Assembly (NCBI GenBank): GCA_964017155.1
Contig: OZ024861.1
Location: 23,488,713-23,552,712, forward strand
DNA from: Oasisia sp. SBJ-2009
Lineage: Eukaryota > Annelida > Polychaeta > Sabellida > Siboglinidae
Reading direction: 5' to 3'
DNA length: 64,000 nucleotides
In this document: piece by piece, positions 641 to 49,402 of the stretch
Layout: the number at the start of each line of letters is the position of its first letter
Position numbering within the stretch: position 1 is the stretch's first letter
The notes under the pieces: model-generated
Seen by the model: the letters and a program-made list of their open reading frames with translations, nothing else
Told to the model about the DNA's origin: nothing
The model's database searches: none
Made by a program: the position numbers and the translations under genes

Positions 641-1914
641 CCAGGTTGATCTTAGTCGTAGTCTTGTTATCTCCTGTGGCATTGGCTGACTTGGTTGAGT
701 TATCATGACTGACACTTGATGTAGTATCCTCAGTGGTTGTTGTCGATGTTGTGATAGTCGTGGTGGGTTTGGTTGTGGGTTTGGTTGTGGTTTTTGGTGG
801 TGCTGTAGTTGTTGTAGTCGTAGTAGTTGTTGTTGTGGTTGTTGTTGTTGTTGTAGTAGTTGTACAGTAAGCGTTTGGTCGTGTTGTCATATCTACTATT
901 CCACACTGACTTTCCATTCCTGAAGCAGAGATGCTATTCATTGATAGCAGTTATGTCACATAAAACAATAATTGCTTTCTGAAAGCATCAGATTTAAGAA
1001 AAGTATGTTATGCAAGTTGGAAAACTTTTCAGAATTCATCAAAGTAAACTTTCACATTCAGGACAAGACAGGATAAACTAATGCATAATTAGTTGGTTCC
1101 ACAAAGTATTTTCGACAAAGAAAGTCAAATTGTTATTAAGTTAAAATCTTTTATAGTCAGTTACTTCTTGTACCAAAAAAAATTACCACTATTCAGTCTG
1201 ATTTCATAACATGCATACTAAGAAAGTAAAGTGTTTGAATTAAAAATTACAGACATGATCACTGACTTACATACCTCCAATCATGTTAATCCTGACAGAG
1301 CTGTTGGTGGGACTTCCAGGGTGGCCCTCAAAAGCAACCAGAAAGTGTCCACTGCTCGGAAGTTTGTACGAGTAGTCTTTTGGTACTTTTCCACAGCAGA
1401 ATTCTAATCTTATGCATCCTTTATCGTAGAACTTGAGTTTCCATGGACAATTGTCTGTGTCACATTGAAACTGTTTCACGGTAATAGAGACATATTTGTC
1501 TGATGTCTTCTGCATGGAGCAGACACACTTGGAGTGTTGTTGAGCCTCTGTGTTGGAGGACACAAGAGCCAGTAGGGTGCCATTCGTTGTGTTTGTACTG
1601 CACATTTCCGCAAGTGTGTAGACCTCTACAAGATAAACAAACACAATCATTAGGAAATTTAGACAACATAGTTATTACCAATTTAATGTTGTCACTAGTT
1701 TACCTTGATGTCGTTCAATGAACAATCTTGTTCCATCCGACTCTACATGTTGATATAAGACCCCAGCCTATTCTGAGTCCTTCAATAGATGTGTATTTCA
1801 GCATGATTGTCTTCATAATAATAATAATGAGCTTTATTTGGTCTCCAAAGCATATCTCTGTTCAAAAAAGTGTGTACATACTACATAGTCATCTATATAA
1901 CAATATATATACAG

Positions 1915-1962
<48 letters not shown>

Positions 1963-3290
1963 GTCTAAATGTGATCACATGATATAATTAAGTTATGTTA
2001 ATGAATACCAATAAGTTTAAGAAAAGGTATGTGTTAACACACTATCATACTGTCACCTGCCAATTAGATACCATTTAAAAAATAATACTAATTTTTTTTA
2101 AGTTCATACCCTTATCGTATTCACTTACATATAAGTTTTTCAGTTTAATTTAAATTCATACATGTATTAAATTTTGTTGTTTGTGATAAATCCGAAACTT
2201 GTATACACTGTTGTATAGTTTTCTGTTGATTATAATATTTTTAGTTTAGTTGTGATGTTTCTCCTTACATTTTTGTCTGCTATATTTCAACATATTGTTA
2301 TATTATTTAAACTTGTGTTTAAATATTATAATTATTCGTCAGTGTACAGAGTCAGACAGAATGTTGGTTTGACTAGTCTGCAGCAGTTAATTAGGGAGGT
2401 AGCAATTAGAGAGATAGCAATTATAGAGCTTCCAAGTGCTGTGTTTGCTGACTAATACAGACAAGAACATGGTCAAATAGGCGGGGCAATTACAATGTCC
2501 GTAAACTGAGCCAATGTTACAGTAAACCTGAGTCATACCCTGTATTGAAAGAGTTCATATATAGGTCTTCTGATTTCATTTGAATATTTACAAAGAGTGG
2601 CACACAATGACATGGACAAATAGATATTTAGCAATGACACCGCATGTATTTCATCCAGACACAGCCACGTGTGGTCAAGTGTTCTTGTTACAGTAACAGT
2701 GGGTGGAAATAACCTCATCAAAATGACCATATTTGTCCTAGTTCTGGTACATAAACGGTCACATATATGGCTGACATAAGATCATTCAGAGTACTAGTAG
2801 GATTTTTATGAGAGAAAAACACATTAAATAGACTATATAATAAAATAAACAGAGAGTATGTTCTGGTAGAAAGTCAAGAAAATGGCACATTATTTATGAA
2901 GTTATGATGAGTTTCCTTATTCAGAGGTATTGGGTAAGCTTGATAAATTTATGACAACAACCATTATGTATGCCAACAAAATGATAATTTTTGCCAAATT
3001 GAAATCACATTATCTATTACAGCAAACAGATTTTCTACAAATCCTATTACATGTACAACATTGACATATGTATTTTTCCTGTTTTTGTCATCCTTTTTAC
3101 CAAACTGTAAAAAGCCTCTACGATCGTGTCTTCTGGTATCAAGTGTCATGTGTTTAACTGCCTGTGACCGAGTGTGTGACCTAATACCCTCATAAGGCAC
3201 CACACCCAGCCCGGGGTATGGCAACTTACCCTCTCCACCTGCGCTTGCTACAGCCACTGCACAGAGAAACATCACCAGTAACACAGCCAT
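641..3290 (-). CDS. R1: CUB-like / Thr-stalk membrane receptor gene, 3' part outside window
   Basis: Three exons are visible on the minus strand: signal peptide 3230-3290 (starts MAVLLVMFLCAVAVAS), CUB-like ectodomain 1275-1625, and Thr-rich stalk 641-919. All junctions are GT-AG and phase 1, so the reading frame closes across them. The ectodomain has a Cys pattern MC..CVC..C..CPWKL..GC..CCG and N-glycosylation sequons. The stalk begins with a run of about 20 Thr encoded by a GTT-type repeat, then a Lys/Pro/Thr segment, as expected for an O-glycosylated spacer. The transmembrane and tail exons seen in R2 must lie left of position 1. The ectodomain exon has exactly the same length (351 bp) as that of R2 and is nearly identical, so R1 and R2 are recent duplicates. 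I infer a cell-surface receptor; the CUB-like label is tentative and the ligand is unknown. Confidence 0.75.
1915..1960. repeat. (TA)n microsatellite
   Basis: Uninterrupted TA dinucleotides in the first intron of R1. Confidence 0.95.
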
Positions 3291-5989: not shown

Positions 5990-6113
5990 TTTGTAACATG
6001 ACTGACCCGTTACACTGTGCTTGCTGGTGTCTGTCTGTAATATGCCTACTCTGTTACACTTTGCTGATGCCTGTAGTATCACTGGACCAATGTATTATGT
6101 AGCTGTCTGTGAC

Positions 6114-6618
6114 ATGACTGCAATGTTACACTCTGTTTGTGTTTGTAATATGACGGCACCATTACATTCTGCTGGTGTCTGTCTTATGACTGCACCATTA
6201 CATTCTGCTGGTGTCTGTAATATGACTGCACCATTACACTCTGCTGGTGTCTGTAATATGACTGCACCATTACACTCTGCTGGTGTCTGTAATATGACTG
6301 CACCATTACACTCTGCTGGTGTCTGTAACATGACTGCACCATTACACTCTGTTGGTGTCTGTAATATGACTGCACCATTACACTCTGCTGGTGTCTGTAA
6401 TATGACTGCACCATTACACTCTGCTGGTGTCTGTAACATGACTGCACCATTACACTCTGTTGGTGTCTGTAATATGACTGCACCATTACACTCTGTTGGT
6501 GTCTGTAATATGACTGCACCATTACACTCTGCTGGTGTCTGTAATATGACTGCACCATTACATTCTGCTGGTGTCTGTCATATGACTGCACCTTTACACT
6601 CTGCTGGTATCTGTCTGT
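6114..6618. repeat. 36-bp minisatellite, 14 units, in R2 3' flank
   Basis: Fourteen units of TGTAATATGACTGCACC plus ATTACACTCTGCTGGTGTC, preceded by degenerate copies back to about 5990. The unit length is a multiple of three, so long but meaningless frames stay open on both strands. Each unit has an internal inverted repeat TGTAAT/ATTACA. It starts about 45 bp after the R2 stop and is homologous to the 11.5-13 kb array. Confidence 0.9.
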
Positions 6619-6663: not shown

Positions 6664-8283
6664 TCAGTCATCGTCCACTATTGGCACAGCGTACACAGGC
6701 TCCACACTCTCATATGACGCCAGAGTCTCGTATGTGTTCTCACTGCCCCCTGGTGGTACTGTTGATGAAGTTGCGATGACAGTCGAAGCATCATTTGGCA
6801 TCGACGCAGTCGACGGATGCTGTCTGGAAATAATGCATATTTCTGTGAATGAAAATGTAGCATTTACCCACTTAAGAACCACAAACCAAAAGCTGTTGTC
6901 ATCAGCATACATTACAGTATTTGTTGTAAACTCATTGGCAGTGGCACTCTCTGATTGGAGCCTGATGCTTACCACTGGCTTTATATAGTTCTTTGTCAGA
7001 AAAAGTATATCTGGTTTACGTAAGTAAATAAGTTAAGTTTTACCTAGGGAAGTGAGTGGACATAGGAGGAGGTGGGAGAAGCAACTATTTCAGTTCTCAC
7101 CTGTCAAATAACACATGGTAAAAACACATTACCTTTGCCATTTGATTGCATTCAGTAAAATACATGTATAGAACATTGTTGACATTCTGGCACTGGGAGT
7201 GAACAAACAGGTGGAAGAAACTTTAAAAGACAGTTTTGTATTCCTGGGTGGGGAGACTCCAAAATTCACAAGAGAATAAATGCAGGGCAAATGTTTGGAG
7301 GAGAGTTGAAGGTGTGTTATGGGGCAGGCACGTATCATGTACATTAAGGGAAGGTGCTCAGTCATGTGTTTCCCAGACAGTCGACGGCACTAACAGAGAA
7401 ACTTGTGAAAATAACAGGGTAAGAAGAATTATGGGAATGAAGAAAACTGATCAACGAAGAATGGAAGAAATGAGGAGGTTGAAATGGAGGAAAGTCTTAA
7501 GAAGCGTGTTGGTATTGTTTTGTTTTCAGTCGTAATACTTTCTTTCACTTACTTCCGTCTTCGCTTGAGGACGAGAATCAGTGTGGTGACAAGGCTGATG
7601 ATGATGACTAGTAGCGCCCCCAAGCAGGCGGCCAGGATCAGAACTACAAACAAAGTGAATAATGACGATAACAAAAGTTGTTAGAATAATGGTACTAATT
7701 ATATTTTGACTATAGGATTATTAGAATTAGTATTATCTTCTCAATCAGAATAACTGCCAGAATTTGTTACATGTTTACACCTTTTCAAATGGGTCTAACA
7801 AATTAATGAAATTCTTTTCTGCAGACTTTTTAATAAATATTTTTTAATAAGTGTACACTGTTTCAAATGCTCATACATTGTTTTGGATACAGTCTAGATT
7901 AAATACTGCTAGGATATAATGTTGTATAGTATTTCCATTGCATGATAAAAAAAACTTAGCAGAACCATAGTTACCAAAAATAGCAATTTTGTAAGTACGG
8001 TGTCATCTATGTTAAACCTGTTTACAATGGATATCACCGAGACAGCACAATCAATCCAGTATAGACATGTAGTGGACAATGCCAACAACCCAGAGAGGTA
8101 GTAATTTTCTACTTTCAAAGGTCTCCATTGGACATACATGTTTTTGTTAAGGACAGCTGTTCACTGAGGAAGATTTCACTTTCATTTTTACTTTCAAATG
8201 TCTCCATTGCATACACATGTTTTTGTTAATGACAGATGTCCAGCATTCACTATAAAACATTCACTGTAGTGTGCCAGGATGAC

Positions 8284-8349
<66 letters not shown>

Positions 8350-8518
8350 CAGCAAATATATGGACATTATTTACCCAGGTTGATCTTAGTCGTAGTCTTG
8401 TTATCTCCCATGGCACCTGGTGATTTGGTTGAGTTATCACGACTGACACTTGATGTAGTATCCTCAGTGGGTTTAGTTGAGGATTTTGGTGGTGCTGTAG
8501 TTGTAGCAGTCATAGTAG

Positions 8519-8555
<37 letters not shown>

Positions 8556-10091
8556 ACAGTAAGCATTTGGCTGTGTTGTCATATCTGCTAAACCACACTG
8601 GCTTTTCATTCCTGAAACAGAAACATACATTTTATACATTTATTGCAGTAATGTCACATTAAATTTTATTTGTTTTCTGAAAGCACTAAATTGAAGGAAA
8701 GTAAGTGATACAAGTTGGAAGACTGTACAGTACTCACCAAAATAATGTTCATGTTCAGAATGAAACAGTGACAATGATTGCATAGTTAATTTGTTCCACA
8801 AACTGTTTATCATAAAGAATTCGTTATTCTTTCTAAGTACTTCACAATCAATTTACCTTTCATCTTAAAAAGAATAACAATATAATTTTCTTTGTGAAAA
8901 ATAGTTTTCAAACCATTCAGTGTAATTTTTTAATATGAATATTAAGAAAGTTAAGTATTTGAAGTACGTACAATAACAGGTGCACAGACACAGTGACATG
9001 TTTACAAACCTCCAATCATGTTAATCCTGACAGAGCTGTTGGTGGAACTTCCAGGTTGGGCCTCAAAAGCAACCAGAAAGTGTCCACTGCTTGGAACTTT
9101 ATACGCATAGTCTTTTAGTACTTTCCCACAGCAGAATTCTACTCTTACGCATCCCTTCTCGTAGAACTTGAGTTTCCATGGACAATTGTCTGTGTCACAT
9201 TGAAACTGTTTCACGGTAACAGAGACGTATTTGTCTGACGTTTTCTGCACGGAGCAGACACACTTGGAGTGTTGTTGAGCCTCTGTGTTGGAGGACACAA
9301 GAGCCAGTAGGGTGCCAGTCGTTGTATTTGTACTGCACATTTCCGCAAGTGTGTAGACCTCTACAAGATAAACAAACACTGCTGTTTAAAGAGACTTAGA
9401 CAGCATATTTATTAATAATGAAATGTTATCACAGGCTTACACATATTCCAGGATCAACATACTTTTCATATGAAACTTGTTTTCATGACCGTGATGCCTG
9501 TTGCCAACAGTTATGAAATTCTAAGCTTTCTCAGTAAATATAATGAAAACAGGTAGTGGTGCCCTCTGGTGAATGGATAATCACTTAATTTGTTAGCTGT
9601 TTTTCTTTCTCCCTGTCTCCCTGTCTTCCTCTCTCTCTCTCTTCCTCTCACTCCCTACCTCTCTATTTCTCCCTCTCTGATATGTAAAAATCATCAGACG
9701 AGTAGAAAACACATAAAAATGTTAAATGTTCTAAGGACACAAATGGACCTAGAAAGAGGCAAGTAAAACTCAACACCTGGGAGGATGTACTACCAGATAA
9801 ACACTTATAGTTAGCATATTAACATAGTACACTGTATATAGATTCATTCATTATATATCCAACATCATTGGATGTTTTAGTATGTAACTGTTCATAACCA
9901 CTATGTAAGCCAACACAATGGGAAGTCATGTCTTCTGGTATCAAGTGTCATGTGTTTAACTGCCTGTGACCGAGTGTGTGACCTAATATCCTCATAAGGC
10001 ACCACACCCAGCCGGGGTATGCCAACTTACCCTCTCCACCTGAGCTTGCTACAGCCACTGCACAGAGAAACATCACCAGTAACACAGCCAT
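6664..10091 (-). CDS. R2: CUB-like receptor with Thr stalk, TM and multi-Tyr tail (299 aa)
   Basis: Complete five-exon gene: signal peptide 10031-10091, CUB-like domain 9010-9360, stalk 8375-8611, transmembrane 7553-7643, tail 6664-6823. Phases agree (1,1,1,2) and the spliced length is 900 nt including TGA. Residues about 1-18 are a signal peptide; 20-137 the Cys-rich domain; 138-216 a Thr stalk with a poly-Thr run; 217-246 a hydrophobic helix ending LKRRRK (stop-transfer); 247-299 cytoplasmic. The tail holds NTYETL, SYESV and VYAVPI, candidate SH2-binding tyrosines. Compared with R3 the tail is shortened: a small deletion removes the R3 YMTI motif and ends the frame at VDDD. A 36-bp minisatellite starts about 45 bp after the stop. 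A LINE fragment lies in the intron about 45 bp past the TM exon donor. Function in surface recognition and signalling is inferred from architecture. Confidence 0.8.
7195..7510 (+). mobile_element. Decayed non-LTR retrotransposon (LINE) RT C-terminal fragment
   Basis: Translations across shifting frames give FLGG, NVWRRVEG, then CENNRVRRI-GMKKTDQRRMEEMRR. This is the characteristic end of the reverse transcriptase region in RTE-like and related animal LINEs (YLG..., CENNW.RRI.G.KR.DRRRM). Frameshifts and missing pieces show it is inactive. It sits in the last intron of R2, opposite in strand to the gene, ending about 45 bp from the TM exon donor. Confidence 0.7.
8287..8346. repeat. (TA)n microsatellite
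   Basis: About 30 TA units, ending 28 bp before the R2 stalk-exon donor. Confidence 0.95.
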
Positions 10092-10290: not shown

Positions 10291-11535
10291 TTCAAGAGTC
10301 ACACTGACACACACACAAACGAATTACTGCCAGATGCCATGACTTCATTCATTGGATCACAATAAGTAAACCACAAAAGCATCCAGCCACCACCACATTA
10401 AGGGTAACACTACAGAGTACTTTGTCAAAGTGGCCCATATTGCACTTCCTCATTCAAGCCATGAATCACTGTCACGCTTGTAAACTGTTGTGTGTTACTG
10501 ACATATGAAACCATAGGTCTATTGTCATATATAACATGCAGTAAACCACAAGTATTGTACCAAAAACAGGCAGGAAAATACCACTGATGTTTGAGATAAA
10601 AGCTTGCACATTTTATGTCACATATGAATGCACACATGCATACACATAATGTTCGGTTGTGGCACCACCTGGTGAATGTTGAATGAATTAAAACAGCCTT
10701 GCCAGTTGTTTCTTAGCCTTGATTTAACTCAGACTCATATTAAACACACTTTATTAAACACACTTGCCAAAGACTGTGTGATATTATATTAATATATACA
10801 TTTTGTTATGATATTTAAATCTTCCTTATTTTCTTACACTACCAGTGATTTCTTCTCTGCTGACCCCCGTGCAAGAACATACTGTTTTTTATTTGTCATT
10901 TATGTCAGTCAGTGACATCACCAAGGTGTTGACACCAACATGTACTCAAAGAACTCAAAGAAGTTATGCTAGGTTTGACACTAGGTGGCTCCACTCATTC
11001 TTGTATCGTTTTATTAACTTTTAAGACAGTGTCTGACATTTGCATTGTGTACAGCAGTTCGCAACATTATTCCTGTTTTTATAATAATTGAGTAACGTGT
11101 ATCTAGTGATCCAGTTGAGTATTCTGTATCAAATGAGCCACTAATCCAGAGAATAAAAAATAAATAAAAAAGTGTTACAGATGTTTTGTGTGGTTTAGGA
11201 GGCACTGGTCAGCTGTATAACCTTGGTGAAAAGCATCTGAAAGTCACAAAATATACTCATCCATAATTGAAGTAATTGATTTATTTCCCACTTTTATAAC
11301 AAATTACACCCAGTGATAAACGATTCCCATGTACATGTATAGAAGGTATACAATAAATTCATCCAAATATTTTGTATCATCACATTTCTATGTAGTGTTC
11401 AATGATTTCTGTCCCATGATAATAAAATATGCAAAACTAAACTAAGTTCTATATTTAATCATCAAATATTACATTAAGTTATGCTGTGTTATTGACTGTA
11501 ACAAGACTGCACCTATACATGATGTCTGTAAGTGT
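10291..11535. other. R2-R3 intergenic, no gene seen
   Basis: AT-rich sequence without recognisable features up to the start of the 36-bp array. Confidence 0.6.
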
Positions 11536-13003
11536 AACATGATTGCCCCGTTACACTCTGTTGGTGACTGTAACATGATTGCCCTGTTACATTCTGTTGG
11601 TGACTGTAACATGATTGTCCCGTTACACTCTGTTGGTGTTTGTAACATGATTGTCCCGTTACACTCTGTTGGTGACTGTAACATGATTGCCCTGTTACAT
11701 TCTGTTGGTGACTGTAACATGATTGTCCCGTTACACTCTGTTGGTGTCTGTAACATGATTGTCCCGTTACACTCTGTTGGTGACTGTAACATGATTGCCC
11801 TGTTACATTCTGTTGGTGACTGTAACATGATTGTCCCGTTACACTCTGTTGGTGACTGTAACATGATTGCCCTGTTACATTCTGTTGGTGACTGTAACAT
11901 GATTGTCCCGTTACACTCTGTTGGTGACTGTAACATGATTGCCCTGTTACATTCTGTTGGTGACTGTAACATGATTGCCCCGTTACTCTCTGTTGGTGAC
12001 TGTAACATGATTGTCCCGTTACACTCTGTTGGTGACTGTAACATGATTGCCCTGTTACATTCTGTTGGTGACTGTAACATGATTGCCCCGTTACACTCTG
12101 TTGGTGACTGTAACATGATTGCCCCGTTACACTCTGTTGGTGACTGTAACATGATTGCCCTGTTACATTCTGTTGGTGACTGTAACATGATTGTCCTGTT
12201 ACACTCTGTTGGTGACTGTAACATGATTGCCCTGTTACATTCTGTTGGTGACTGTAACATGATTGCCCTGTTACACTCTGTTGGTGACTGTAACATGATT
12301 GTCCCGTTACACTCTGTTGGTGACTGTAACATGACTGCCCCGTTACACTCTGTTGGTGACTGTAACATGATTGTCCCGTTACACTCTGTTGGTGACTGTA
12401 ACATGATTGCCCCGTTACTCTCTGTTGGTGACTGTAACATGATTGTCCCGTTACACTCTGTTGGTGACTGTAACATGATTGCCCCGTTACTCTCTGTTGG
12501 TGACTGTAACATGATTGTCCCGTTACACTCTGTTGGTGACTGTAACATGATTGTCCCGTTACACTCTGTTGGTGACTGTAACATGATTGCCCTGTTACTC
12601 TCTGTTGGTGACTGTAACATGATTGCCCTGTTACACTCTGTTGGTGTCTGTAACATGATTGTCCCGTTACACTCTGTTGGTGACTGTAACATGATTGCCC
12701 CGTTACACTCTGTTGGTGTCTGTAACATGATTGTCCCGTTACACTCTGTTGGTGACTGTAACATGATTGCCCCGTTACACTCTGTTGGTGACTGTAACAT
12801 GATTGCCCCGTTACACTCTGTTGGTGACTGTAACATGATTGTCCCGTTACACTCTGTTGGTGACTGTAACATGATTGCCCCGTTACAGTCTGTTGGTCAC
12901 TGTAACATGATTGCCCCGTTACACTCTGTTGGTGACTGTAACATGATTGTCCCGTTACACTCTGTTGGTGACTGTAACATGATTGTCCCGTTACACTCTG
13001 TTG
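11536..13003. repeat. 36-bp minisatellite, ~40 units, overlapping the R3 stop codon
   Basis: About 40 units of TGTAACATGATTGTCCC plus GTTACACTCTGTTGGTGAC. The right-most unit supplies the last codons and TAA of R3 on the minus strand (CACCAACAGAGTGTAA), so the array grew out of the end of the coding region. Variants (GCC/GTC, CTGTTAC/CCGTTAC, GAC/GTC) are interspersed in higher-order patterns. Each unit has TGTAAC/GTTACA inverted ends. Confidence 0.9.
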
Positions 13004-16000
13004 GTGTCGATCTGTAACGCATCATCGTGAACCACCTTGGACTTAGAACCGTTTTCCTGTTTAACATCATCAATCGTCATATAACCGTCGCCATCACTTA
13101 TTGGTACAATGTACACTGGGTCCACAGTCTCATACGCAGCGGAATCGTCGGTTGCCTTTGGCTCCAGAGCCTCGTATGTGTTCTCAGTGCCCCCTGGTGG
13201 CAATGTTGAAGTTGCGATGACCGTCGAAATGTCATTTGGCGTCGATGCAGTGGACTGACACTTTCTGGAATTAGTAAATATTTCTGTTAATGAATATGCA
13301 GCTTATACACACATAAGTGCAAACAAACAGTTGTTATCAACGTTATCATATTTTTATCTTAAACTCTGTGACTGTGGCGACCCCTGGCTGCAGTTTCCTC
13401 TCCACTCAACTCATCTTTTTATTTTCATTAGCCAGTAATAGTGTCTGGCATATGTTAGTAAATAACCTATGTTTTACACAAGGAAGTGAATGAGTGGACT
13501 TGGGCACCTGGGAGAAGATTCAATCACGCTGTCCTAAAGTAAGCAGTTTGTTTCTGCTTGACTGAGTTATCACAGACAGCTTGCTGACGTTATATCACAA
13601 AATAGATTGTAGTATTTAAGATTTGTATACCACATTATCAAAATTAGAACAAGACAGGCACAATTCACACCACAAGAAAGAAAAAGTTAGAACATGTAGT
13701 AGCAACTGGCAAGATAGAAAGAAAATGACCAAGAGGGCACCCGCAAATAAAGTAATTGATAGTCTGTCAACATGGTATGGAGTGAATGCATAGAACTACT
13801 AATAAAATAAAATAATTGATAGTCTGTCAACATGGTATGGAGTGAATGCATAGAACTACTAAGAACAATGATTGATGGTGTGGTTTGGAGGGCTGTGATC
13901 ACTGATGCTGGGAACCAAAACACGCCTAGAAGAAGAAGGTTACCTGTTCATCTTTAAGTTTAACATCTGCAGATTCCCTTTAGTTGCTTATCGTTAATTT
14001 ACTAAAAAATCAGAGTTCAGATTGTATCACTCATACAAACAGATTACCTTTTGTAGAGCCAGACGAGGATTCCTCCGATTATTCCTCCAACTATGACAAC
14101 TGCAGCAACTACAACGACTGTAGCAACTATAATCTCTGTAGTTAGTATATCGCCTGTAGTTCCACCTGCAAAGTAATCACAATGAAAGGGCATGTAGCAA
14201 ATATACAAAACATTGCAATTGTCATTATGTCATCATCAAGGCAAGGCATCATTGTCATCTGTGATTAGTAAAACATGGGGCAGACACAATTATTGTCTTG
14301 TCTATTATTGAACATGTTAAAAACTTATGGTTTCCATAATGGAGGAAGCAAGGTGGCTGCCCCAGTCAGTAAATGACATTTCACAATAACTTAAAAAGTT
14401 CAGTCCTTGACTTATACCATATGTCATGTTAGATCATATTCTTTGTATTATAACTGACTGATAGTTTACCCGGAATTATTACAAAAGTTAATCTATAAAC
14501 CTCAACAACAGAATGTAGCAATGAGAAATATATGAAGATCAAGTTGATAAACCATTAAACCTTTGTGTGTTGCCTTACTGAACTAGTGGTCAATATCATA
14601 GTTCATGTGAATTCTTAAATAATGTTTCCAGTCATTTTCTATCTTCAAAACAATATACAACAATAATTTTCATATAAGGTACTTTTTAGTAATGTCTTTT
14701 TATATTTCTTTTCAATCAGTTGTGATTGTACAGTATTTATGTAAAACAAGGCTCTGTTAAATTGTCCCAGTGAGTAATATACTTCACTTCCAATACAGGT
14801 TTTCTGGGAAACATATTTACACTGACACAGTGTCTATTAGGTGCAGTGAACTACATCAGTGTACGTGACAGGGACTCTGTGTACCTGTCTGTCCGGCCAG
14901 TGACTTGTCAGTCCCGTCCGTTGACGTCTGTCCTCCTGTAGTTGGTGGTTGTAGTGGTGATGTTGTTGTTCTAGATGGAGGTGGTGTTCTTGTTGTTGTT
15001 TGTGGTGTTGCAGTAGATGTTGTTGTCACACAAATCTTGCCAACATACGTTGGGATTTCTGCCAATCCACACTCAATTGTAATGTCTGAAACATACACAT
15101 TGCAACATTCTGTCATAAAATGTACATTAATGTGTTTGCTGTGTTAAACAAACCTATTACAAAGAAAATGTTTCTATTTTCTATCAGACATGCTAGAAAG
15201 AATCTTTTCATTGAACAAACCAATCATGATCAAAATGAGATGGAATAATAAATTATGTAGTCTGCAAATTTGAATTTTTTAAACAATTAAGTAGTTGTGC
15301 ATAATATCAATCAGAGTAGCCCAAATAATGACATGTGACCTGTGGCCTTTTCCAGTTCTGTGTGTAGTCCCACCAACAGCTTGTCCAATTCAAGTTGTAC
15401 TATTTTATATAAATGTTTTATTATACATTACATGTGTTGTTGTTGATGATAATGTTGTGTTGCTGTAGTAGTTGTTGATAGTTGTCTACCTACTCACCAC
15501 CAATGAGTGTAATTGTCACTGCTTTCAAGAAGTAGGAGGCGGAAATAACTTGTGCATTCTTATGCATAACCATCACTTTCGCGGAACTTGGAATGCGATA
15601 TGTAAAGTCGTTTTGCTTTGGTCCGCAGCAAATTTCTTTTGTCAGACATCCGTTGTCATAGAACGCCAGTTTCCAAGGGCATGTGATAGTGTTGCATTGG
15701 AAATTGTTCGCACTAACAGAGACCCATTTGGATGACATTCTCGTTGTGACGCAGACACAGGTAGACTGTCTCTGGATGACAGCGCCACTGGCCTGGAGGA
15801 TGTGGGCACTAGTGGCACTGGTCATCTTCTTGCACATCTCTAGTACTTTGTATCTTTCTGGAATAAAAACAAAGCTGCTGTTAAGTGTGAAGTAGTTAGT
15901 TGTTACCACAGATTGTCCTATTTTAAAGAGATAAATAAACTTGTATAATTTTTTATTGATGATTGATCATCACTTGAAAATATTTCAGTTGGTAAAATTG

Positions 16001-16559
16001 TATTGTTGAAGATTTTATATGTTGGCATTTAGTACATAGGAATACTGTTACTTGTTTGCAAGACATCTGAATCTGAATGGGGTAAGCCATAAGGAGCCAG
16101 TATTGGCTGTTACATACTACAGTGTATGCAGGCAGTTGACTGTACTGACATCTCGGAGCTGAAAGAGTAGTGGCCAATAGACGGGTCGTTGTCCTCTTGC
16201 TGTGTGCAGTAGGCAGTTATATATAGTGTACATGACATTAACTATTGTGGAGCATTGTGATCACATGTGGTGCGTCGCAGCTGTGGCGCATCGCAGCTGT
16301 GTTGCATGGCAGCTGTGGCGCGTCGCAGCTGTGGCGCGTCGCAGCTGTGGCGCGTCGTAGCTGTGGTGCGTCGCAGCTGTAGGTAGTGGTTTGTAACTAC
16401 GATGGTGCATTGCAACTAAACAACAGACGTATGTGACCAGGCCTTCACCTTGCTACAGTAACTTATATTACACTTACCTATTTGTCCATAAGAGAGGTTC
16501 AGGCAAACCAAGAGACATAATACAACTCGTATATATGTCCAGTGGACCCTCATGATCAT
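12991..16559 (-). CDS. R3: CUB-like receptor with Thr/Pro stalk, TM and YxxV/YxxI tail (344 aa)
   Basis: Five exons: signal peptide 16478-16559, CUB-like domain 15498-15857, stalk 14885-15085, transmembrane 14048-14165, tail 12991-13264. The sum is 1,035 nt with consistent phases. I chose the ATG at 16559; a second in-frame ATG lies at 16553. The ectodomain has the family pattern (EMCKK, CVCV, TCPWKLAFYDNGC, CCG). The stalk is Thr/Pro/Gly-rich rather than poly-Thr. The TM exon is long (118 bp), with a Val/Ile/Gly-rich helix followed by WLYKR. The tail has NTYEAL, AAYETV, VYIVPI and GYMTID, the most complete of the R1-R3 group. The TAA stop and the last codons are part of the terminal unit of a 40-copy, 36-bp minisatellite, so the array would form the proximal 3'UTR. 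A receptor role is inferred. Confidence 0.8.
13741..13862. repeat. Two-copy ~60-bp tandem duplication in R3 intron
   Basis: TAATTGATAGTCTGTCAACA and the following 40 bp occur twice with near-perfect identity. No coding potential. Confidence 0.8.
16262..16385. repeat. Short GC-rich repeat rich in CAGCTG
   Basis: About seven imperfect units of GTGGCGCGTCGCAGCT, each containing CAGCTG (E-box core), in otherwise AT-rich DNA. It lies about 95 bp inside the first intron of R3. Confidence 0.75.
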
Positions 16560-16690
16560 GTCATGCACTGACCAATTCTGTGACATCACTGCAGTGGACA
16601 CCACAGTGACCAAACTGATCTTGTTTACAAGGAGTATTTATAAGTTGAGGGGTCACACCCATGCCTGACCCAGATTGACCAAACAACAAT
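16560..16690 (-). promoter_or_regulatory. Conserved proximal upstream block of R3
   Basis: Directly upstream of the ATG is CACTGACCAATTCTGTGACA then TCACTGCAGTG, followed by AGTGACCAA and GGGGTCACACCC. The same order occurs before R4 and R5. On the gene strand it contains ATTGG (CCAAT box) and, here only, CTTATAAATAC (TATA-like, about 16641-16652). Likely 5'UTR plus core promoter. Confidence 0.55.
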
Positions 16691-19450: not shown

Positions 19451-22400
19451 CTAGACAGCCACTACAGTGTCTGATATTGTCTCATACATTGAACCATTGA
19501 GTGAATCAAGGTCTGCATAGACATTTTCTTCTTCAACGGCAGCTTGTGAGAGGTCAAGATACAGCCCAGGGTGGTCCGCTTCTGCCTGTGACATCACTTG
19601 CCTCCTGCCGGGCTCACTAGGTGGCCGTGGTGATGCACTGGAATTGATGCGATGCATGCAGACATTGCTGTCGTCACGGGACGAGTTGTCTAATGTCGGA
19701 CGACGTTTTGGTGGCTGCGGTGGGGCTGGACTTGAAGGGTGCTTTCTGAAAGTGTGGATGAAGATGACATCAAGTGTTTTCTCCTGATGCCACTGTCACT
19801 CACAACTTCATTTCTCAAGCTGATTTTTATACAAGAGCTAGTACATTTGACAAAGATCATAACTCAAGTCACAGAGTGGTGGTTAGCGGGTTTGTGGATA
19901 GGTGGGTAGATGGATGGTTGGATGGGTGGGTGGGTGGGTGGGTGGGTGGGTGGGTGGGCGGACGGACGGACGGACGGACGGACGGACGGACGGACGGACG
20001 GACGGACGGACGGACGGACGGGATGGATAATCTGCAGAAGAATGAGATGCAAAAGACATGAGCAGTCTCAAGGCCTGCGTACTGTGTAACTAAAACATAT
20101 CTTCAGTTGAATAGAGATGACACATTGGGATAGAGAGGCACACTTGGCACATATGGGTTACCTTTTGTGGAACACAAACGCTGTCACTCCTACAATGACT
20201 GCGATCACAACTATGACGGCTGCTGTGGCTCCCCCTATTGTCACCGCTGGAACACACATGGTAATAATAAAATGTATAGACATTTTTTATTTTGGTAGGC
20301 AAAAATTTAAACTATTAAGAGAGGATTGGCAAATGAGAGCAAAAGATAGTGGATACAAATGTGGCCGCAGTAGTTAAAAAACAGTATGGAGAAAAGAAAG
20401 AAAAAAATCCAAAGGACCGGAACCTAGGTCTGCCTTATGACAGGAAAACAAAAAGTGGTACATGTATTTTCATGTTCAGTAACAATTATTCTAAATACCA
20501 GCAAAATGCCCATAACCTAACTGGATAGTTTAGAAGTTGATATGTTGCAATCATGATAGTAATATTACCAACTGTTACAAGACACACAGCATTGTTACAC
20601 AAACACTGTAATGCCCTCAATCAAACATTGACAACTGCATCATGCATGTGCAGTAGAGCTCACCGTAAGGTCAAAACAACGATAGTGAGATAGAATTAGA
20701 GGTCCACCAAGAGGCCTTAATTGTGACGATGTCTAATAATAATTATGTGTATCAGTATGGTGTTGTCATGAGGATTGAAGTAAGCCTATTTTATCAGTTT
20801 CTACTTCATTTTCCAAGCAGTGTAATCCACGTGGGCTGGTAGTTTTTGCCTAGCATGCATGGTGCTGTAATTATTAAGTTACTTTTTCTAACTTTAAGTT
20901 GTTTCTGAACGACTGATTTACATGGCAACTGATTTACATTTATGCCATGCTAAGACACAGTCTACATGTGGCATAGGCTGTGTCATGATGTCCTAGGTGT
21001 CATGATGTCCTAGGTGTCATGATGTCCTAGGTGTCATGATGTCCTATGTGTCATGATGTCCTATGTGTCATGATGTCCCATGTGTCATGATGTCCCATGT
21101 GTCATGATGTCCCATGTGTCATGATGTCCCATGTGTCATGATGTCCCAGGTGTCATGATGTCCTAGGTGTCATGATGTCCTAGGTGTCATGATGTCCTAT
21201 GTGTCATGATGTCCTATGTGTCATGATGTCCTATGTGTCATGATGTCCTATGTGTCATGATGTCCTATGTGTCATGATGTCATATGTGTCATGATGTCCC
21301 ATGTGTCATGATGTGTCATGATGTCCCATGTGTCATGATGTCCTATGTGTCATGATGTCCTATGTGTCATTATGTCCTATGTGTCATGATGTCCTATGTG
21401 TCATGATGTCCTATGTGTCATGATGTCCTAATGTCATGATGTCCTTGTGGCAGACAATAAGGGACACTTCCTACCCTTCCACCTACAAAAGGTGAGAGTC
21501 TTGATATGTATGAGGTATTTAGAACAAACAGGGTTCTTACTTCATGTGGTCATAGATTAATCCCTTAATGTTTCCTGATTGGGTTCCAAGCTCTCTATGT
21601 GGAAAACTTCAACGTACAAAACTATGCAGGCTTGATAGAAGAAGCTTGTTTTATGTAAGTCTGAGTGGTGTTCTTCAAGTTCTATGTCCAAGGAAAAGAA
21701 AGAGTCCTATCCAGAAACCAGTTCTCTCCACTTCTCCACTTCTGGAACCAACACTTGCAGACAGAAGTTGCCTCATTTTGACATAGTCTCCACAATGTCC
21801 AAGCTTTGGCTGCCAAGTATCCAGCTCTCCCCACATCTTTACTTCTGGAACAAATATCTGCAGATTGGGCTAATCTTTGTCTGATTGTTTTTGACAAACT
21901 TTGGTGTTTCCTCGTATAACTGATCAAGAGCTCAATGACAAACCAACTGACCTTGGCTTGGTCCAGAAGTCTGGCGGTTGGTGTCTCTTGTTGGTTGAGC
22001 AGAAGTGGTTGTTGGAATGGTCCATGGTCTTGTGTTTGGTGGAAACACCCATATACCAGTGAACACAGTGGGCATATGTTGTGCAGAAGAAGCGAAACCT
22101 GTGCATTTCACCTTCACCTCAGGTGTTGTTGTTGCTCCATCTGAAACACACCAACTCAGATTCACCTGATGGCCATGCTTATACTCACTGCTTAAACTTT
22201 GCATCATGACTCCTGCTTAAAATCACTCCTTAACATCGATTTAAGTGATCATGTACACTGTATAGAGAAACAGCATCAGGATACACCCATTGGTGTGTCA
22301 TGGATATAACAGTGTCTGATCTGTACAGCTGTGGCTTTCTGCACTTTGAAAAGGCTCAACAGGGTTAAGGGTGAAACATGTTTAATGAGGGATGTTCTTG

Positions 22401-30100: not shown

Positions 30101-32409
30101 GCTGCAGGTGTAGTGTACAGTGACTCTGAGGGATTCAGGGCGTCTGACGAAAGAACAGACTTGTTTGTTCCACTCCATCCCCAGTCTACATGTCCTCTGT
30201 CCTGCACACTGCTTCAGATACCCCAGGCGGTCAACGTCTTCTGTACAGACCTCCATCTTGGGTGGCGTAGGTGTGTGTCTCACAGACACTGCTCCTGTTG
30301 CTCCTCTCCGCACTCGGCTCCTCTTGTCTCTTTTGTTTCCACTGTTGTCATCCTCTTTTCTATCCTTGTCTTCTTTTCTTTTCTTGTCTTCTTCTTTTCT
30401 TTTGTTGTCTTCTTCTTCTTGTCTTTTCTTGTCTTCTTCTTCTTGTCTTTTCTTGTCTTTTTCTTCTATCTTGTCTTCTTCTTCTTGTCTTTTCTTGTCT
30501 TCTTCGTTTCCATCCTTGTCAGCATCTGTTCCATCCGTGTCTTCTCCATCTTTGGCTGTGTCGCTTTCTTCTGTATCTTCTCTGGGTTGAGGAATGCTTC
30601 CTGGTTGAACAGGATCATAACCATAGGTATCAGGATCATCATAGGCATCAGTACCAGGATCATCATAGGTATCAGGACCATGATCATCATAGGTACCAGG
30701 ATCTGAGCTATCAGAATCTTGGTTGTGAGGATCAGGATATGAGCTGTCATGGTCAGGATCTGGGTTGTAGGAATCAGGTCTGTCATGGTCAGAATCAGGT
30801 CTGTCATTATCATAATCTGGTCTGTCATGATCAGGATCTGGGGTGTAAGGATCAGGATTATCATGGTCAGAATATGGTCTGTCATGAGCAGGATTGTAGG
30901 AATCAGGTCTGTCATGGTCAGAATCAGGTCTGTCATGAACAGGATCTGGGGTGTAAGGATCAGGATTATCATGGTCAGAATCTGGTCTGTCTTGATTAGG
31001 ATCTGGGTTGTAGGAATCAGGTCTGTCATGGTCAGAATCTGGTCTGTCATGATTAGGATCTGGGTTGTAGGAATCAGGTCTGTCATGGTCAGAATCTGGT
31101 CTGTCATGATTAGGATCTGGGGTGTAAGGATCAGGTCTGTCATGGTCAGAATCTGGTCTGTCATGATTAGGATCTGGGGTGTAAGGATCAGGTCTGTCAT
31201 GGTCAGAATCTGGTCTGTCTTGATTAGGATCTGGGCTGTAACGATCAGGATCTGGGTTATCATGGTCAGAATCAGGATTGTCATGGTTAGAATCTGATCT
31301 GTCATGGTCAGAATCTGGTCTGTCTTGATTAGGATCTGGGCTGTAACGATCAGGATCTGGGTTATCATGGTCAGAATCAGGATTGTCGTGGTTAGAATCT
31401 GATCTGTCATGGTCAGAATCTGGTCTGTCATGATTAGGATTTGGGCTGTAAGGATCAGGATCTGGGTTGTCATGGTCAGAATCTGGTCTGTCATGATTAG
31501 GATCTGGGTTGTAAGGATCAGGATCTTCTCTGCTGGTAGCATGATCAGGATCATAGTGGTTACCAGGATTATCTGAAACTGGATCCGCTTCTGAGCCGTC
31601 ATCGGGATGGTCTGGATCTGGCATTGTCCTTGGATAACGAGTAGCAATCCCAGAATCTCCGCTGTCCCCTTCCTTCTGCCAAGTCTTCCCCATCACCACA
31701 CGGTCCACCGTGATGGTCTCTGATCTCCGGCATTGCAGTTGCAATGACAACACCTTCCGGTCGTTAAATTCACCCGAGATGTCTTGTGTCCCTGAAAGTG
31801 TACAGATTGATAACATCACTGCTGTTTAATTACTGGTGAAAATTATGTATATTTATGTAGTTTAACATAATACTATATACATCACTATTGTGGTGAACAA
31901 ATGCTATATATTAGCATAGTAAATTTGTATATGGATGTACAATTCCAGAATTACTGAATTGACCAATGCAGAGCAAGGAGGCATAGCGTGTGAACACGCA
32001 GGTAATTGTCAGTTGTTTTAAAAAATATTTTGGCTTCAAATAGATGATGTGTAGTTGGCTGTAATCATTTGTAATTGTTTGACGGAATAACAGAATACGC
32101 TATGAATTAAGTTATTGTTTCACTAACAGAGATCTGTGAGGAAAGAACAATGCAAATGGATCGTCTTACAGGTTCTTACAGTCCATTTCTGGCGTGTATG
32201 AGGCATTCCTGCCTCTTATGCCAGCTCTGTCTTTTACAGTCGTTATCGTAAGATAAGATGTAGCTTCCTTCAATGTTACATCATTGTAACCTGTTACATC
32301 ATTGTAACCTGCTACATCACTGTAATTTGTTACACTTACTTATTCTGCCTTGTGAGAAGTTGAGGAAGAAGAGACACAGGACAACAAGTCCACAGGTCCA
32401 GCAGGCCAT
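27104..32409 (-). CDS. R5: SUEL-lectin receptor with giant acidic repeat insert, CUB-like domain and six-Tyr tail (926 aa)
   Basis: Six exons: signal peptide 32340-32409, lectin 30091-31791 (1,701 bp), CUB-like 29110-29490, stalk 28599-28814, TM 27800-27884, tail 27104-27431; 2,781 nt, phases consistent. The lectin starts with KVLSLQLQC and VVMGKTW and ends with CTEDVDRLGYLKQC, GQRTC and LRVTVHYTC. Between these halves is an insert of about 440 residues: imperfect repeats of DPYTPDPNHDRPDSDHDR type, then a charged DKKRQEEE stretch, then RSRVRR-GA, a furin-like site at 30305-30322. The CUB-like and TM exons resemble R4. The tail has KVYDDN, PVYDNH, HKYETM, GLYLDI, NVYSEL and SVYETL (SxYxxL fits an ITIM). 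Spacing is too long for an ITAM. R4 and R5 are paralogues. The repeat length probably varies between alleles (inference). Confidence 0.82.
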
Positions 32410-32550
32410 GGTCACCTCCTGCACTGTCCAGTCTTATGACATCACTGCAGGTAGTTGTCACAGCAGTGACCAGCTTGGTCTTGCAGATGACTAACAATGG
32501 AAGAATGCGGGGGGGTCACTCCCCACATCTGACTACTGTTGACTGGACAT
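32410..32550 (-). promoter_or_regulatory. Conserved proximal upstream block of R5
   Basis: CACTGTCCAGTCTTATGACA then TCACTGCAG, AGTGACCAGC and GGGGTCACTCCCC, matching the blocks before R3 and R4. Confidence 0.55.
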
Positions 32551-43601: not shown

Positions 43602-43604
<3 letters not shown>

Positions 43605-43682
<78 letters not shown>

Positions 43683-45072: not shown

Positions 45073-45709
45073 CTAATAGTACAAACCTGAAATGAGCTCG
45101 AGGTACGGGTGCTCCTCTGTGCTCGGACTCCGTGACGGCACGGGCGGTGCATCAGCACTCGGCGCTGACTGAGGTACCGTCGAGGCGTTACTCGGAGTCC
45201 GAGACGGCACAGGTGGCAGGGCGGCGGCGTGCGTGGTCTGAGGGTGGGACTCGGGTAGTTCCTCGTAGACATTTCCAGCTGGAGGTGCTTCTTCGTAGAC
45301 GTGCGCGGCGGAATATGCAGAAGTGACGTAGGGGCCGTCGAAGCTGTGCGCCGTCTTCTGAGAGGAGATTGTCGATGGTCTCATCTTCTTTAAGTCGCCG
45401 CTGCACACAAGACAAGACGAGGTTGTGGTGTGTAGATGTTTTAATGTTGAATATTTAGAAACTTGTGTCACGATGTGTGATGACTTCAAACTATTTGAGG
45501 GTGCATGGGAAGGAGTGGGAAATGGGTTCGTCCTTATATTTTGTGGAAAGCGGCGACCTCTGGGAGGCGGAAGATTGGCTCCAAACATGTGGTAGAGAGA
45601 TACATTAGAACATTGAAATCCCGGCCCCACGCAGGCACACACAAGTACAAGCACGCACGAACGCACACATAGGCGTACACAACACATCACACACAGACAC
45701 ACGCACACA

Positions 45710-45753
<44 letters not shown>

Positions 45754-48700
45754 CACACACACAGGTATTCAGTAAAGATCGACATATAAAATATTTCTGA
45801 AATTGCTTTATCATAAGCAAGTCAGTTATTTTTACTATTGTCGTGAGAGTCAAATGTCACAACTTGCAAACTTAAACTTACTTTCTGCGTCGTTTGAGGA
45901 GAACGAAAGCAATAATTGCCACGACACCCAGGACGAGCACTCCAACGATGCTGCCGACGATCAAACCTGCCAAAAACACAATAATGTGGCTGCACAGTCT
46001 ATTTACTAGTAATCAAGACAATCGTCAGCATAAAACGACCAGGTTCAGTAATTATAAATGGTTGTTTTAAGTACACTGTAATAACAAATTGTAGATATTT
46101 GTGCATTTGACAACAACAGAAACATTTTGGAAATCGTTCGAACTGTTTCTTATATCCGAATAAAACAACATAAGTCTTAACGGGGATTTTGTATTTGTTT
46201 CACTTTAAATGGTTACTCGTTTTACCACGATTACTTATTACACCATGTGTCCCATGCGACGATTAAAGGAATAATATCGTGATTTACTGTATACGCCAGT
46301 GTTCTCGTCTTATAGCTACGACCCCATTTACTCATCATTTACCCGTGTTGCCTGCGTCCCCTTGTGCTGAGTCTGTAGAGCTTTGTTGTCCAACTTTCCC
46401 ATTGGGTATCGTACGTTCCCCCGTGACAGGAGTGGACGTGTCACCAGCGTCAACAGGTGATGTCGCTACAATACAAAATATGCATATCAAAGCAAAAATC
46501 ACAACTTGAACGTGTGGTGATTTTCGATTTGCATACGTGGTTGTTTCCCTTTGACTTTAAATTCAAATAACCGTAAGAACGTTTTGTATGTACTGATTTT
46601 ATCACAAAAATACTTTTTACCCTGTTATATTTTTGTTTTATCTTATTGTTTAAATTATGTATTACTAAGCCGATAATCACCTGTCTTTGTAGTTGTTTTC
46701 AAGTAATAACCTTTGTAAGGTCTCCAAGTAATAACCTTTGTAATGCTTTCAAGTAATACCTACTTGTGCATTTGACAACACCAGAAACAAGTTGAAACTC
46801 GTTCGAACTGCTTTTTATATACGAATAAAACAACGTATGTCTTAACAGGGATTTTGAATTTGTTTCACTTTAAGTGGCTATTAGTTTTACCACGCGTCCT
46901 TGTTACACCATGTGTCCCATACGAGATTAAAAGAATAATATACGCCAGTGTTCTCGTCTTATAACTACGACCCCATTTTCTCATTATTTACCCGTGTTGC
47001 CTGTGCCCCCTTGGGCCGAGTCTGTAGCGCTTTGTTGTCCAACTTTGCCCTTAGGTATCATACGTTGCCCCGTGACAGGTGTGGACTTGTCGCCAGCCCC
47101 ATCAGGCAATGTCACTATAATACAAAATTGGCATATCAAAACAAAATCACAACTTGGTCGTGTGATGATTTTCGATTTGCTTACTTGGTTGTTTCCCTTT
47201 GACTTTAAATTTAATAACCATAAGAAAATGTTGTTATGTTATCTGATTTTATCAAAACAAATACGTTTTAGTTATAGTTTTGTTTTATCTTATTATTTAA
47301 ATTACTAAACCGATGATCACCTGTCTTTGTCGTAGAAGCCTGTCGAGTCGCTTCACGGACAGTTGACGTCGGCCTAGAGGTTGTCGATGTCGTACGTCTT
47401 GTAGTCGTAGGAGAAGTTCTATGAAGACGAGTGGGTCGAGTTGCCGCTGTAGATTTTGCAACAATGTGAACACGCAGGAGAATGTCAGTACACATAAGGC
47501 GCGATGCGATGGGTAAAGCAAATGATAACATGAACCAAACATTAGCCAAAGACCAGCCATATATTGGTAATTTCCACTCACGAGGAGATTGGTGTGGTAA
47601 CCGTCAACTTATGGATGTAATGTAAATATATGACATGTCAGAGCAAACTGGTTATTTAACTGAAATATTATGAAACATGCGTTTTGCCTTGTTTTATTCC
47701 ACTTCATAATGATATCTGACTTGTTTAAATATAGTTCTTATTTATTGACAAAGCTGAAGCAAACAATAAAAACAATGTATTTATCATTTTGCTACTTAGT
47801 GTCTATTGGTTTTTAATCCATGGGTTCATAAATGCATGAACTTTATTATTATTGTTTAGTTATTCATCAGTAAAAAGTTGGCACTAACAATTAGACAAGA
47901 TGGCATTATTAGGACCCAGTCCGATCCACATCTGCCAAAATAACATAATTGATAGCACATGATTAATCAGCTAAGTTCTGTTTACAATCCCATATTGAAT
48001 ATATAACTAACTGTTTCCACGGTGTGACGTACGTAATGCTCACCGCCATCCTGACTTTACCATTTATCCAGGCAACAGGAGAAGATTATAAGGGCGAAAG
48101 AAGGAAGCCAGATAAACCCTGTTGGTAGATCTGGCTTTCTTCTTCCGCCCTGTAGCCTTCTCCTTTACCATTTATCTGTCTCTTCTACTATCTCGCTCCC
48201 GTGTATCCAACCAACCCATCTTTATTTGCAATATTAAACAGGTTGTTCAGATCCGAAACCGGAATTGCGAAGAGACAGAAAAACCTTTGGCTTAATTACC
48301 ATGATTCCAAACAAAGATATTGTTGCAAACACATGAACCCGCATTTCTCTGTTATGTTTCAAAATTTACGACTTAAAACACCTAAAGATCGGTAACTCGT
48401 ACCCCCTTTGTCGTGTTTGCATACGAACCTGTGGTCGTGGTGTGGTCATCCTCTCGCTCAATCTCCTTGCATTCGTACTGCACATGGACAATCACGCCAC
48501 CTCTGAAGTTGGGTGAACAAGGGTTGCGTTGGCCCCGTCGTATCCATGATGTTATTTTCGTTTCCGGACGGATGCCTACTTTACAGCGTTGTTTACCAAA
48601 GCACCGTGAATACGGTCTGTCCGTCAAGTCCAATGAACAGTGTTTTTCATCGGAGTCTTGTTCGCATTCCTACAACCGACAGTATTAAAGTTTAAGCTAC

Positions 48701-49402
48701 TTCAGTGACATAAACACTGTGGTCGTTGGAGACACACTACAGTATTGGGGTGTTAACTTTAATGTCACATTGACATAGTAAAACTGTTTTTTAATTACTG
48801 CTACTGATACTACTGCCACGGTTGCTATCCCGTAGCAGCAGTAGCAACAACAGCAAGAGCAGCAGCAACAATGACATTAGCAGCAACACAAACAACCACT
48901 ATGATATCACCTAAACAGTAACAACGAACATAACATAAATAACAACATGCATAGAGAAAATAATAAATAGGCCACGCCTATATGTTTGATATTATTATAA
49001 CGAGTGACCTATTGCCGTTGGTTGTACGACCCACGGCAAGGTTATGGTCGTCTGTCATTTGCCTCGTTACGTTGCTTGTTGATCCATCACTGTATTTTAG
49101 TCAAATGTTGCCATAACGAACATCTCTCAAACATACGTACAACGTACCACTTCCAAGCAACTGCATATGATAATAAAATGTTTATGTTGCTCTATTACCA
49201 ATCGCTAAAACCACGACTTTCTCATTCAATCAACAAGTAGGCCTAGTGTTCGGCTACCCTATGTTACTCACATGAGATTTGTCTTCGTGACGATTGTAGG
49301 AGACTTCTGTGATTGTTGAGATGACCCCTTTGCCGCACCTGAGACGAACATTCACATCCCTGACGCTGTCAAAGCATTCGACCGCGTCCTTTGCTCCAGT
49401 GT
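45073..49402 (-). CDS. R6: SUEL-lectin receptor with three stalk exons, TM and Tyr/Pro-rich tail (5' end not seen, 384 aa read)
   Basis: Seven exons: lectin N-half 49272-49402, lectin C-half 48429-48669, stalks 47321-47446, 46992-47114 and 46343-46465, TM 45882-45966, tail 45073-45400. Phases match (1-0, 0-1, 1-1, 1-1, 1-1, 1-2, 2-stop). The lectin reads VNVRLRCGKGVISTITEVSY, then CSLDLTDRPYSRCFGKQRC, then NPCSPNF and VIVHVQYEC, a good SUEL pattern split by one intron. The first stalk exon is Thr/Arg-rich; the other two are tandem copies of one another. The TM exon gives IVGVLVLGVVAIIAFVLL then KRRRN. The tail has HVYEEA, NVYEEL, HPYLEL and two PPVPSR SH3-type motifs. No CUB-like domain is present. 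The signal-peptide exon should lie beyond 49402 but I could not find one before the LTR array. A downstream alternative last exon is possible (see findings). Confidence 0.75.
45690..45762. repeat. (CA)/(CGCA)n microsatellite in R6 intron
   Basis: ACGC tetranucleotides then CA dinucleotides between the R6 tail and TM exons. Confidence 0.9.
48055..48176. repeat. Foldback element flanked by 14-bp direct repeats
   Basis: CTTTACCATTTATC at 48055-48068 and 48163-48176 flanks arms 48078-48113 and 48128-48163 that are inverted copies (GGAGAAG...GGAAGCCAGAT against ATCTGGCTTTC...CTTCTCC) around a 14-nt loop. MITE-like, but the direct repeats are longer than usual and the right one shares a base with the arm. 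Confidence 0.6.

Follow-up and report, generated by a model that had tools for sequence, protein, structure and literature searches.

Organization of the locus

The window analysed here is a stretch of 64,000 nucleotides (nt) of contig OZ024861.1 from the siboglinid annelid Oasisia sp. SBJ-2009, in which we modelled six receptor-like genes, R1 to R6, all on the minus strand. Their exons encode a signal peptide (sig), a SUEL-type domain in some members, a CUB-like domain, a mucin-like stalk, a transmembrane (TM) segment and a tyrosine-bearing tail, and they are distributed as follows:

641..3290, minus strand: R1, partial; sig 3290-3230, CUB-like 1625-1275, Thr-rich stalk 919-641; TM and tail past the window start
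6664..10091, minus strand: R2, 299 aa; sig 10091-10031, CUB-like 9360-9010, stalk 8611-8375, TM 7643-7553, tail 6823-6664
12991..16553, minus strand: R3, 342 aa; sig 16553-16478, CUB-like 15857-15498, stalk 15085-14885, TM 14165-14048, tail 13264-12991
19451..24784, minus strand: R4, 522 aa; sig 24784-24709, SUEL with insert 23907-23383, CUB-like 23124-22726, stalk 22140-21952, TM 20246-20162, tail 19745-19451
27104..32409, minus strand: R5, 926 aa; sig 32409-32340, SUEL with insert 31791-30091, CUB-like 29490-29110, stalk 28814-28599, TM 27884-27800, tail 27431-27104
45073..49402, minus strand: R6, 5' incomplete; SUEL half a 49402-49272, SUEL half b 48669-48429, stalk 47446-47321, TM 45966-45882, tail 45400-45073
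47114-46992 and 46465-46343, minus strand: two further stalk exons of R6, 123 nt each, tandem copies of one exon

R1 to R5 have exon phases in common (sig 0-1, SUEL 1-1, CUB-like 1-1, stalk 1-1, TM 1-2, tail 2-0), with R1 following the order and phases of R2 to R5 as far as it is visible, that is, up to the stalk. Within this group, only R4 and R5 have a SUEL exon. In R6, the SUEL domain occupies two exons (1-0 and 0-1), followed by stalk (1-1), TM (1-2) and tail (2-0). The 30 modelled exons are joined through GT donors (25/25) and AG acceptors (25/25); since GT-AG boundaries were imposed during modelling, these counts are no independent test. Such support comes, for the exons of R1 to R5, from conservation between paralogues and from non-synonymous divergence (dN) below synonymous divergence (dS), and, for the junctions of R6, from Ridgeia and Lamellibrachia proteins that run across the same joins and are, as far as visible, predictions rather than cDNA.

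An earlier note on this DNA had placed the genes between positions 641 and 49402, which in our models are exactly the end of the R1 stalk exon and the start of the R6 SUEL half a exon. The layout it described, a stalk, a TM segment and a single tail exon, is borne out in R2 to R6; the TM and tail of R1 lie outside the window.

Paralogy and selection

The most similar pair of duplicates is R1/R2, with 78% DNA identity over ~1.1 kb. The identity of the CUB-like exons is 90% for R1/R2, 47% for R4/R5, ~39-40% for R2/R3 and 39% for R1/R3, and R4 and R5 additionally share 54% identity in the C-terminal halves of their SUEL domains and 82% in the TM exon as DNA. R3 bridges the R1/R2 and R4/R5 groups: its CUB-like exon resembles those of R1 and R2 and its tail that of R2, and its signal exon with the 5' flank resembles R4 (75%, E 1.7e-16) and R5 (69%, E 5e-11). 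R3, R4 and R5 also have a conserved stretch ahead of the signal exon (16478-16624, 24709-24862 and 32340-32550). It contains a frame opened by an upstream ATG, broken by a stop in R5, and is possibly an upstream open reading frame or a shared promoter region.

Divergence was estimated by the Nei-Gojobori method (NG86) in 13 paralogue comparisons. The 11 that yielded a finite dN/dS all lie between 0.20 and 0.58 (0.35 for the R1/R2 CUB-like exon), indicating purifying selection. The two without a finite ratio are the R1/R2 signal exon, with 0 synonymous changes and 1 non-synonymous change, and the R3/R5 CUB-like exon, with a dN of 0.99 and a saturated dS.

No convincing extra copy was found within the window by tblastn of the domain exons. 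Among proteins from other contigs, P0005 is 73% identical to the CUB-like exon of R3, and P0007 and P0008 match the R4-type CUB-like head; these may represent other species or further copies. A homologue search with full-length R4 returned none at E <= 10 among 7993 candidates scored.

R6 and its tubeworm relatives

The spliced R6 model is 71% identical to NP493_71g03032 of Ridgeia piscesae over 94% of the query (E 1.2e-131) and 39% identical to LSAT2_020737 of Lamellibrachia satsuma over 98% (E 6e-55); the only other match listed is the tail open reading frame of the window itself, on a contig of 2,435,971 bases. By exon, identity to Ridgeia and Lamellibrachia is 87/60% in the tail, 86/68% in the TM segment, 85/36% in the stalk and 72/40% in the SUEL domain, so that conservation is higher in the tail than in the SUEL head. 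The 123-nt stalk exon is present in two tandem copies in the window (46343-47114 region) versus one in the Ridgeia and Lamellibrachia proteins. The Lamellibrachia homologue, which starts with Met, has one SUEL domain.

With R1 to R5, R6 shares only the SUEL domain (30% identity to R4, 23% to R5) and the layout. The earlier note had spoken of six related genes; shared phases and paralogy make R1 to R5 one tandem family, but the count is better given as five plus a looser neighbour, because R6 has no CUB-like exon, a SUEL domain in two exons, no signal exon that could be found and a tail that cannot be aligned with the others.

SUEL heads

The sole Pfam match of the R6 SUEL domain is PF02140 (E 0.0023). 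Its homologues match the same family (Lamellibrachia, E 0.0018; Ridgeia, E 0.023), as does the R5 domain when its insert is left out (E 0.063), all below the curated cut-off. The R4 domain, likewise without its insert, gave no SUEL match in Pfam, only a chance family at E 0.084. Single-sequence searches of PDB with the R4 and R6 domains returned 0 and 0 matches, and a three-row SUEL profile returned eight PDB sequences at E <= 10 (best E 0.029), of which seven are entries for latrophilin or rhamnose-binding lectin (RBL). The SUEL identity of these heads, as the earlier note had proposed, is thus supported at the level of sequence profiles.

Their description as lectins is doubtful. In mouse latrophilin-1, Glu42, Tyr63 and Lys120 contact the sugar, and E42D or K120R already lowers or abolishes binding (PMC2430599). 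In our alignment, R4 and R5 lack all three contacts, with no Cys-Glu ahead of the first aligned Cys, Met in the place of Tyr and the Lys missing between the final two Cys. In R6, the Tyr is retained, Phe follows the first Cys (no Glu) and Arg stands in the loop for the Lys, a position at which Ridgeia and Lamellibrachia have Lys; contacts outside the aligned core were placed by eye. With these contacts lost or substituted, working lectins were rejected, and protein rather than monosaccharide ligands would therefore be expected. Non-carbohydrate ligands for receptor SUEL domains have also been suggested by the authors of the latrophilin study (PMC2430599).

The SUEL exons of R4 and R5 contain in-frame, mid-domain inserts: ~75 residues of 48-bp repeats in R4 (about 23545-23775) and 471 residues, rich in Asp (128) and Pro (78), in R5 (about 30260-31675). 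Both sit near the site of the SUEL intron of R6 and may have originated from a retained intron. That the R5 insert is itself an unspliced intron was considered and provisionally rejected, as the tandem periods listed for it (21, 24, 42, 57 and 114; 48 in R4) are all multiples of three and both exons are open; the periods of the Lys/Glu-rich end (18, 21, 24 and 66) are multiples of three as well.

CUB-like heads

None of the five CUB-like exons matched a Pfam family up to E 10, under HMMER filters that drop most weak matches, and profile comparison detected no relationship between the CUB-like exons of R1 to R3 and those of R4 and R5. For R4 and R5, a CUB fold is tentatively favoured: the R5 exon was modelled and matched by fold, and the CUB-bearing matches include neuropilins. 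The CUB-like domain of the earlier note therefore stands as a favoured fold in two genes, but not as a Pfam match in any of the five and not in R6, which lacks the exon; of the two domain families it had singled out for profile searches, SUEL was recovered below cut-off but CUB was not.

Pfam scans of R3, R4, the R6 SUEL domain and the CUB-like exons, which are insensitive, returned no Ig family up to E 10. PDB sequence searches with queries A1, A9 and P0003 gave 1, 3 and 2 matches, none of them SUEL or CUB. Several matches were set aside as chance: ARAP2 for A1 (E 0.76), beta-propellers for A9, receptor TM families for P0001 and P0003, and, in Pfam, DUF6479 (E 0.018) and the SIT adaptor (E 0.096) for R4 and a plant family (E 0.062) for R3.

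Stalks, transmembrane segments and tails

R1 to R5 begin with a hydrophobic leader, R2 to R6 have a hydrophobic TM segment, and the mucin-like stalks consist of 43-59% Thr, Ser and Pro. No charged residue lies in any of the five TM cores of R2 to R6, that of R1 being outside the window. An immunoreceptor tyrosine-based activation motif (ITAM) has the consensus YxxL/I-x6-12-YxxL/I and an inhibitory motif (ITIM) the consensus [SIVL]xYxx[LIV]; consensus motifs for Grb2, PI3K and SH3 binding and the rule that links charged TM segments to adaptors served as further background. Motifs were compared with 5000 shuffles per tail, the P values being uncorrected for nine motifs in five tails, and tails were aligned locally, each against 1000 shuffles.

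The tail of R4 contains YLDL-x10-YADL-x7-YETI, two overlapping ITAM-spaced pairs with gaps of 10 and 7, which arose in 0/5000 shuffles; it has three YxxL/I (P 0.0006) and three PxxPx[KR] (P 0.0002). R5 has six tyrosines and four Yxx[LIVM] (P 0.010), and R3 has three Yxx[LIVM] (P 0.029). The two such motifs in R2 (P 0.083) and the two in R6 (P 0.24) are not above shuffles, and R6 also has two PxxPx[KR] (P 0.006). ITIM-like sites occur once in R4 (SMYETI, P 0.12) and once in R5 (SVYETL, P 0.19); the tails of R2, R3 and R6 have no site with the ITIM consensus. The motifs listed in the earlier note were all recovered: the ITAM spacing of R4, the six tyrosines of R5 with SVYETL among them, YE[TA]L and VY[AI]VPI common to R2 and R3, and YEEL with two PPVPSR in R6.

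Alignment reveals that these tails are built from shared modules. Of 1000 shuffles, 0 reached the score of R2/R3, 0 that of R4/R5, 8 that of R2/R5 and 15 that of R3/R5; for the remaining six pairs, the number was 145 to 414, and the R6 tail aligns with none. The R5 tail holds the R2/R3 module (PPGGS-xYET) together with the R4 module (GLYLD, NVYxxL, YET[IL]), and the possibility that all tails are unrelated was rejected on these grounds. The tails differ less than the earlier note had stated: three tyrosine modules are common to R4 and R5, and R5 has PPGGS-YET in common with R2 and R3. The last three tyrosine motifs have gaps of 10 and 7 in R4 and of 14 and 13 in R5; spacing of the same three tyrosines is what sets the R4 ITAM apart from the R5 tail, which has no ITAM. 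The R2 tail ends early through a 13-nt frameshifting deletion relative to R3, losing the last tyrosine motif of R3.

Minisatellites of 36 bp lie at the tail ends of R3 (11533-13006, ~41 copies) and R2 (6032-6614, ~16 copies). Visual comparison shows the repeat unit to be similar to the sequence around the stop codon of the R3 tail, and the array may have grown from the gene end.

From the differing tails, the earlier note had deduced opposite signalling, as in paired activating and inhibitory receptors. Our results weaken this reading: none of the five tails is purely ITIM, none of the five TM cores is charged, and R4 combines ITAM spacing with one ITIM-like site. Among the heads whose tails are visible, R4 and R5 (CUB-like, 47%) have related tails and R2 and R3 (~39-40%) have like tails. 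The best candidate for a pair with opposite tails is R1/R2, as R1, whose head is 90% like that of R2, has its tail outside the window.

Other features of the window

Positions 50479-64000 consist of a 4286-bp tandem unit, in which 300-nt stretches at 50479, 54765, 59051 and 63337 are 100% identical; it has no Rfam match and is either a satellite or a recent array. A minus-strand open reading frame at 18551-18811 resembles the C-terminal end of a long interspersed nuclear element (LINE) reverse transcriptase. Scans of the window returned 0 Rfam families and 0 tRNAs.

Comparison with known systems

The vertebrate KIR, LILR and CLR clusters consist of tandem paralogues with modular exons, separate TM and tail exons and differing tails. 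Unlike these clusters, the five tails described here include no short-tailed partner with a charged TM segment and no pure ITIM tail, and the heads differ. The Alr genes of Hydractinia are also clustered and encode Ig-like heads, a comparison made by description only. Alr proteins resemble the present ones as invertebrate receptors with ITAM/ITIM candidates, and the FcoR proteins of the Botryllus schlosseri fuhc locus as locus-clustered type I receptors whose long tails carry ITIM, hemITAM or YxxI/L/V motifs (PMC12065747). The FcoR heads are Ig, sushi, Ig, whereas those reported here are SUEL and CUB-like.

EVA-1 (C21orf63) differs in having two SUEL domains before one TM segment and no CUB domain, whereas R4 to R6 have one SUEL domain each in our models. 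We know of no ITAM in EVA-1. It is similar in being a single-pass protein with a SUEL head and substituted sugar contacts (PMC2430599). Latrophilins (ADGRL) share the SUEL domain of the profile match but span the membrane seven times, in contrast to the single TM exon here. In the gutless symbiotic annelid Olavius algarvensis, SUEL/rhamnose-binding lectins are represented by seven transcripts and one protein, and the excerpts of that paper mention no tyrosine tail (PMC5117596).

Among the matches listed, our literature search found no description of a SUEL + CUB receptor with a tyrosine tail. Tubeworm genome papers, which count TLR, NLR, sushi and lectin genes, report expansions of the first three and, according to one, no expansion of lectins (PMC8476170, PMC10192322, PMC8789280); in their excerpts, "rhamnose" had no match in PMC8476170 or PMC10192322 and "SUEL" none in PMC8789280. 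Because the heads score below or outside Pfam cut-offs, surveys that count domains would overlook a family of this kind.

Interpretation

Exon anatomy (leader, mucin-like stalk and TM segment included), paralogy and purifying selection give good support to a tandem type I receptor family with tyrosine tails, and the tyrosine motifs of R4 exceed chance. Our fuller reading, to which we give an even chance, is that R1 to R5 form a tandem family specific to this lineage, made up of single-pass type I phosphotyrosine receptors, and that R6 next to them is a receptor of SUEL-TM-tail layout which other tubeworms have retained as well. The receptor head, a CUB-like domain alone or together with a SUEL domain devoid of sugar contacts, would bind a protein ligand, and receptor clustering would allow a Src-family kinase to phosphorylate the tail. 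The ITAM-spaced YxxL pairs of R4 could dock the tandem SH2 domains of a Syk-family kinase. In R5, the same three tyrosines, 14 and 13 residues apart and outside the usual ITAM range, and the extra tyrosines would make a docking tail for single SH2 proteins, as would the tails of R2, R3 and R6, the last also offering its PxVPxR sites to an SH3 adaptor. Members may thereby recruit different partners through gain, loss and re-spacing of shared modules.

Several rival explanations were weighed. The genes could encode EVA-1-like co-receptors for guidance or adhesion, with heads that bind secreted cues or matrix, tails that dock SH2/SH3 adaptors to the cytoskeleton and no immune role; we regard this as unlikely, if worth keeping in view. 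Tandem expansion with gain or absence of domains and a re-spaced ITAM is less usual in guidance receptors, and one SUEL domain is found here against two in EVA-1. The conserved R6 tail with its two PPVPSR, the neuropilins among the CUB-bearing matches and EVA-1 itself, a single-pass SUEL co-receptor for Slit whose sugar contacts are also substituted (PMC2430599), speak for it. Phagocytic or scavenger receptors of the Draper/CED-1 type, in which ITAM-like tails would trigger the uptake of dead cells, microbes or symbionts via Src- and Syk-family kinases with no inhibitory counterpart, are a distinctly doubtful alternative. Draper-type engulfment signals through Src and Shark. The ITAM spacing of R4 and the YxxL motifs of R5 fit such a role; invertebrate phagocytic receptors that signal in this manner are on record. 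Endosymbionts are digested endosomally in Riftia (PMC8789280). However, a strict ITAM is absent from four of the five tails, none contains NPxY (by eye), and Pfam scans of the full R3 and R4 models, the two full models scanned, returned no EGF family.

It is very improbable that the models wrongly join exons of separate small genes, or represent decaying copies, and that their likeness to receptors is accidental. The models do derive from genomic sequence alone, R1 and R6 are incomplete, and a frameshifting deletion shortens the R2 tail; yet exon order and phases recur in R2 to R5 and in the visible part of R1, dN lies below dS, and the R6 junctions are common to predicted proteins of two other species.

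For a tandem family of phosphotyrosine receptors, an immune role is plausible, and the likeliest one would be in blood or tissue cells that recognise microbes, symbionts or self. A bolder version, which we consider improbable, is a tubeworm-specific immunoreceptor complex, a counterpart of Botryllus FcoR and Hydractinia Alr but with SUEL and CUB-like heads, for recognition of the bacterial symbiont or of self, whose ITAM would be made or unmade by changes of 4 and 6 residues in the spacing of three tyrosines. If the genes signal as read here, a gutless, symbiont-dependent annelid would possess ITAM-type receptors of its own, and a comparison of R4 with R5 would offer a direct test of whether motif spacing alone makes a docking tail an activating one of the Syk type.

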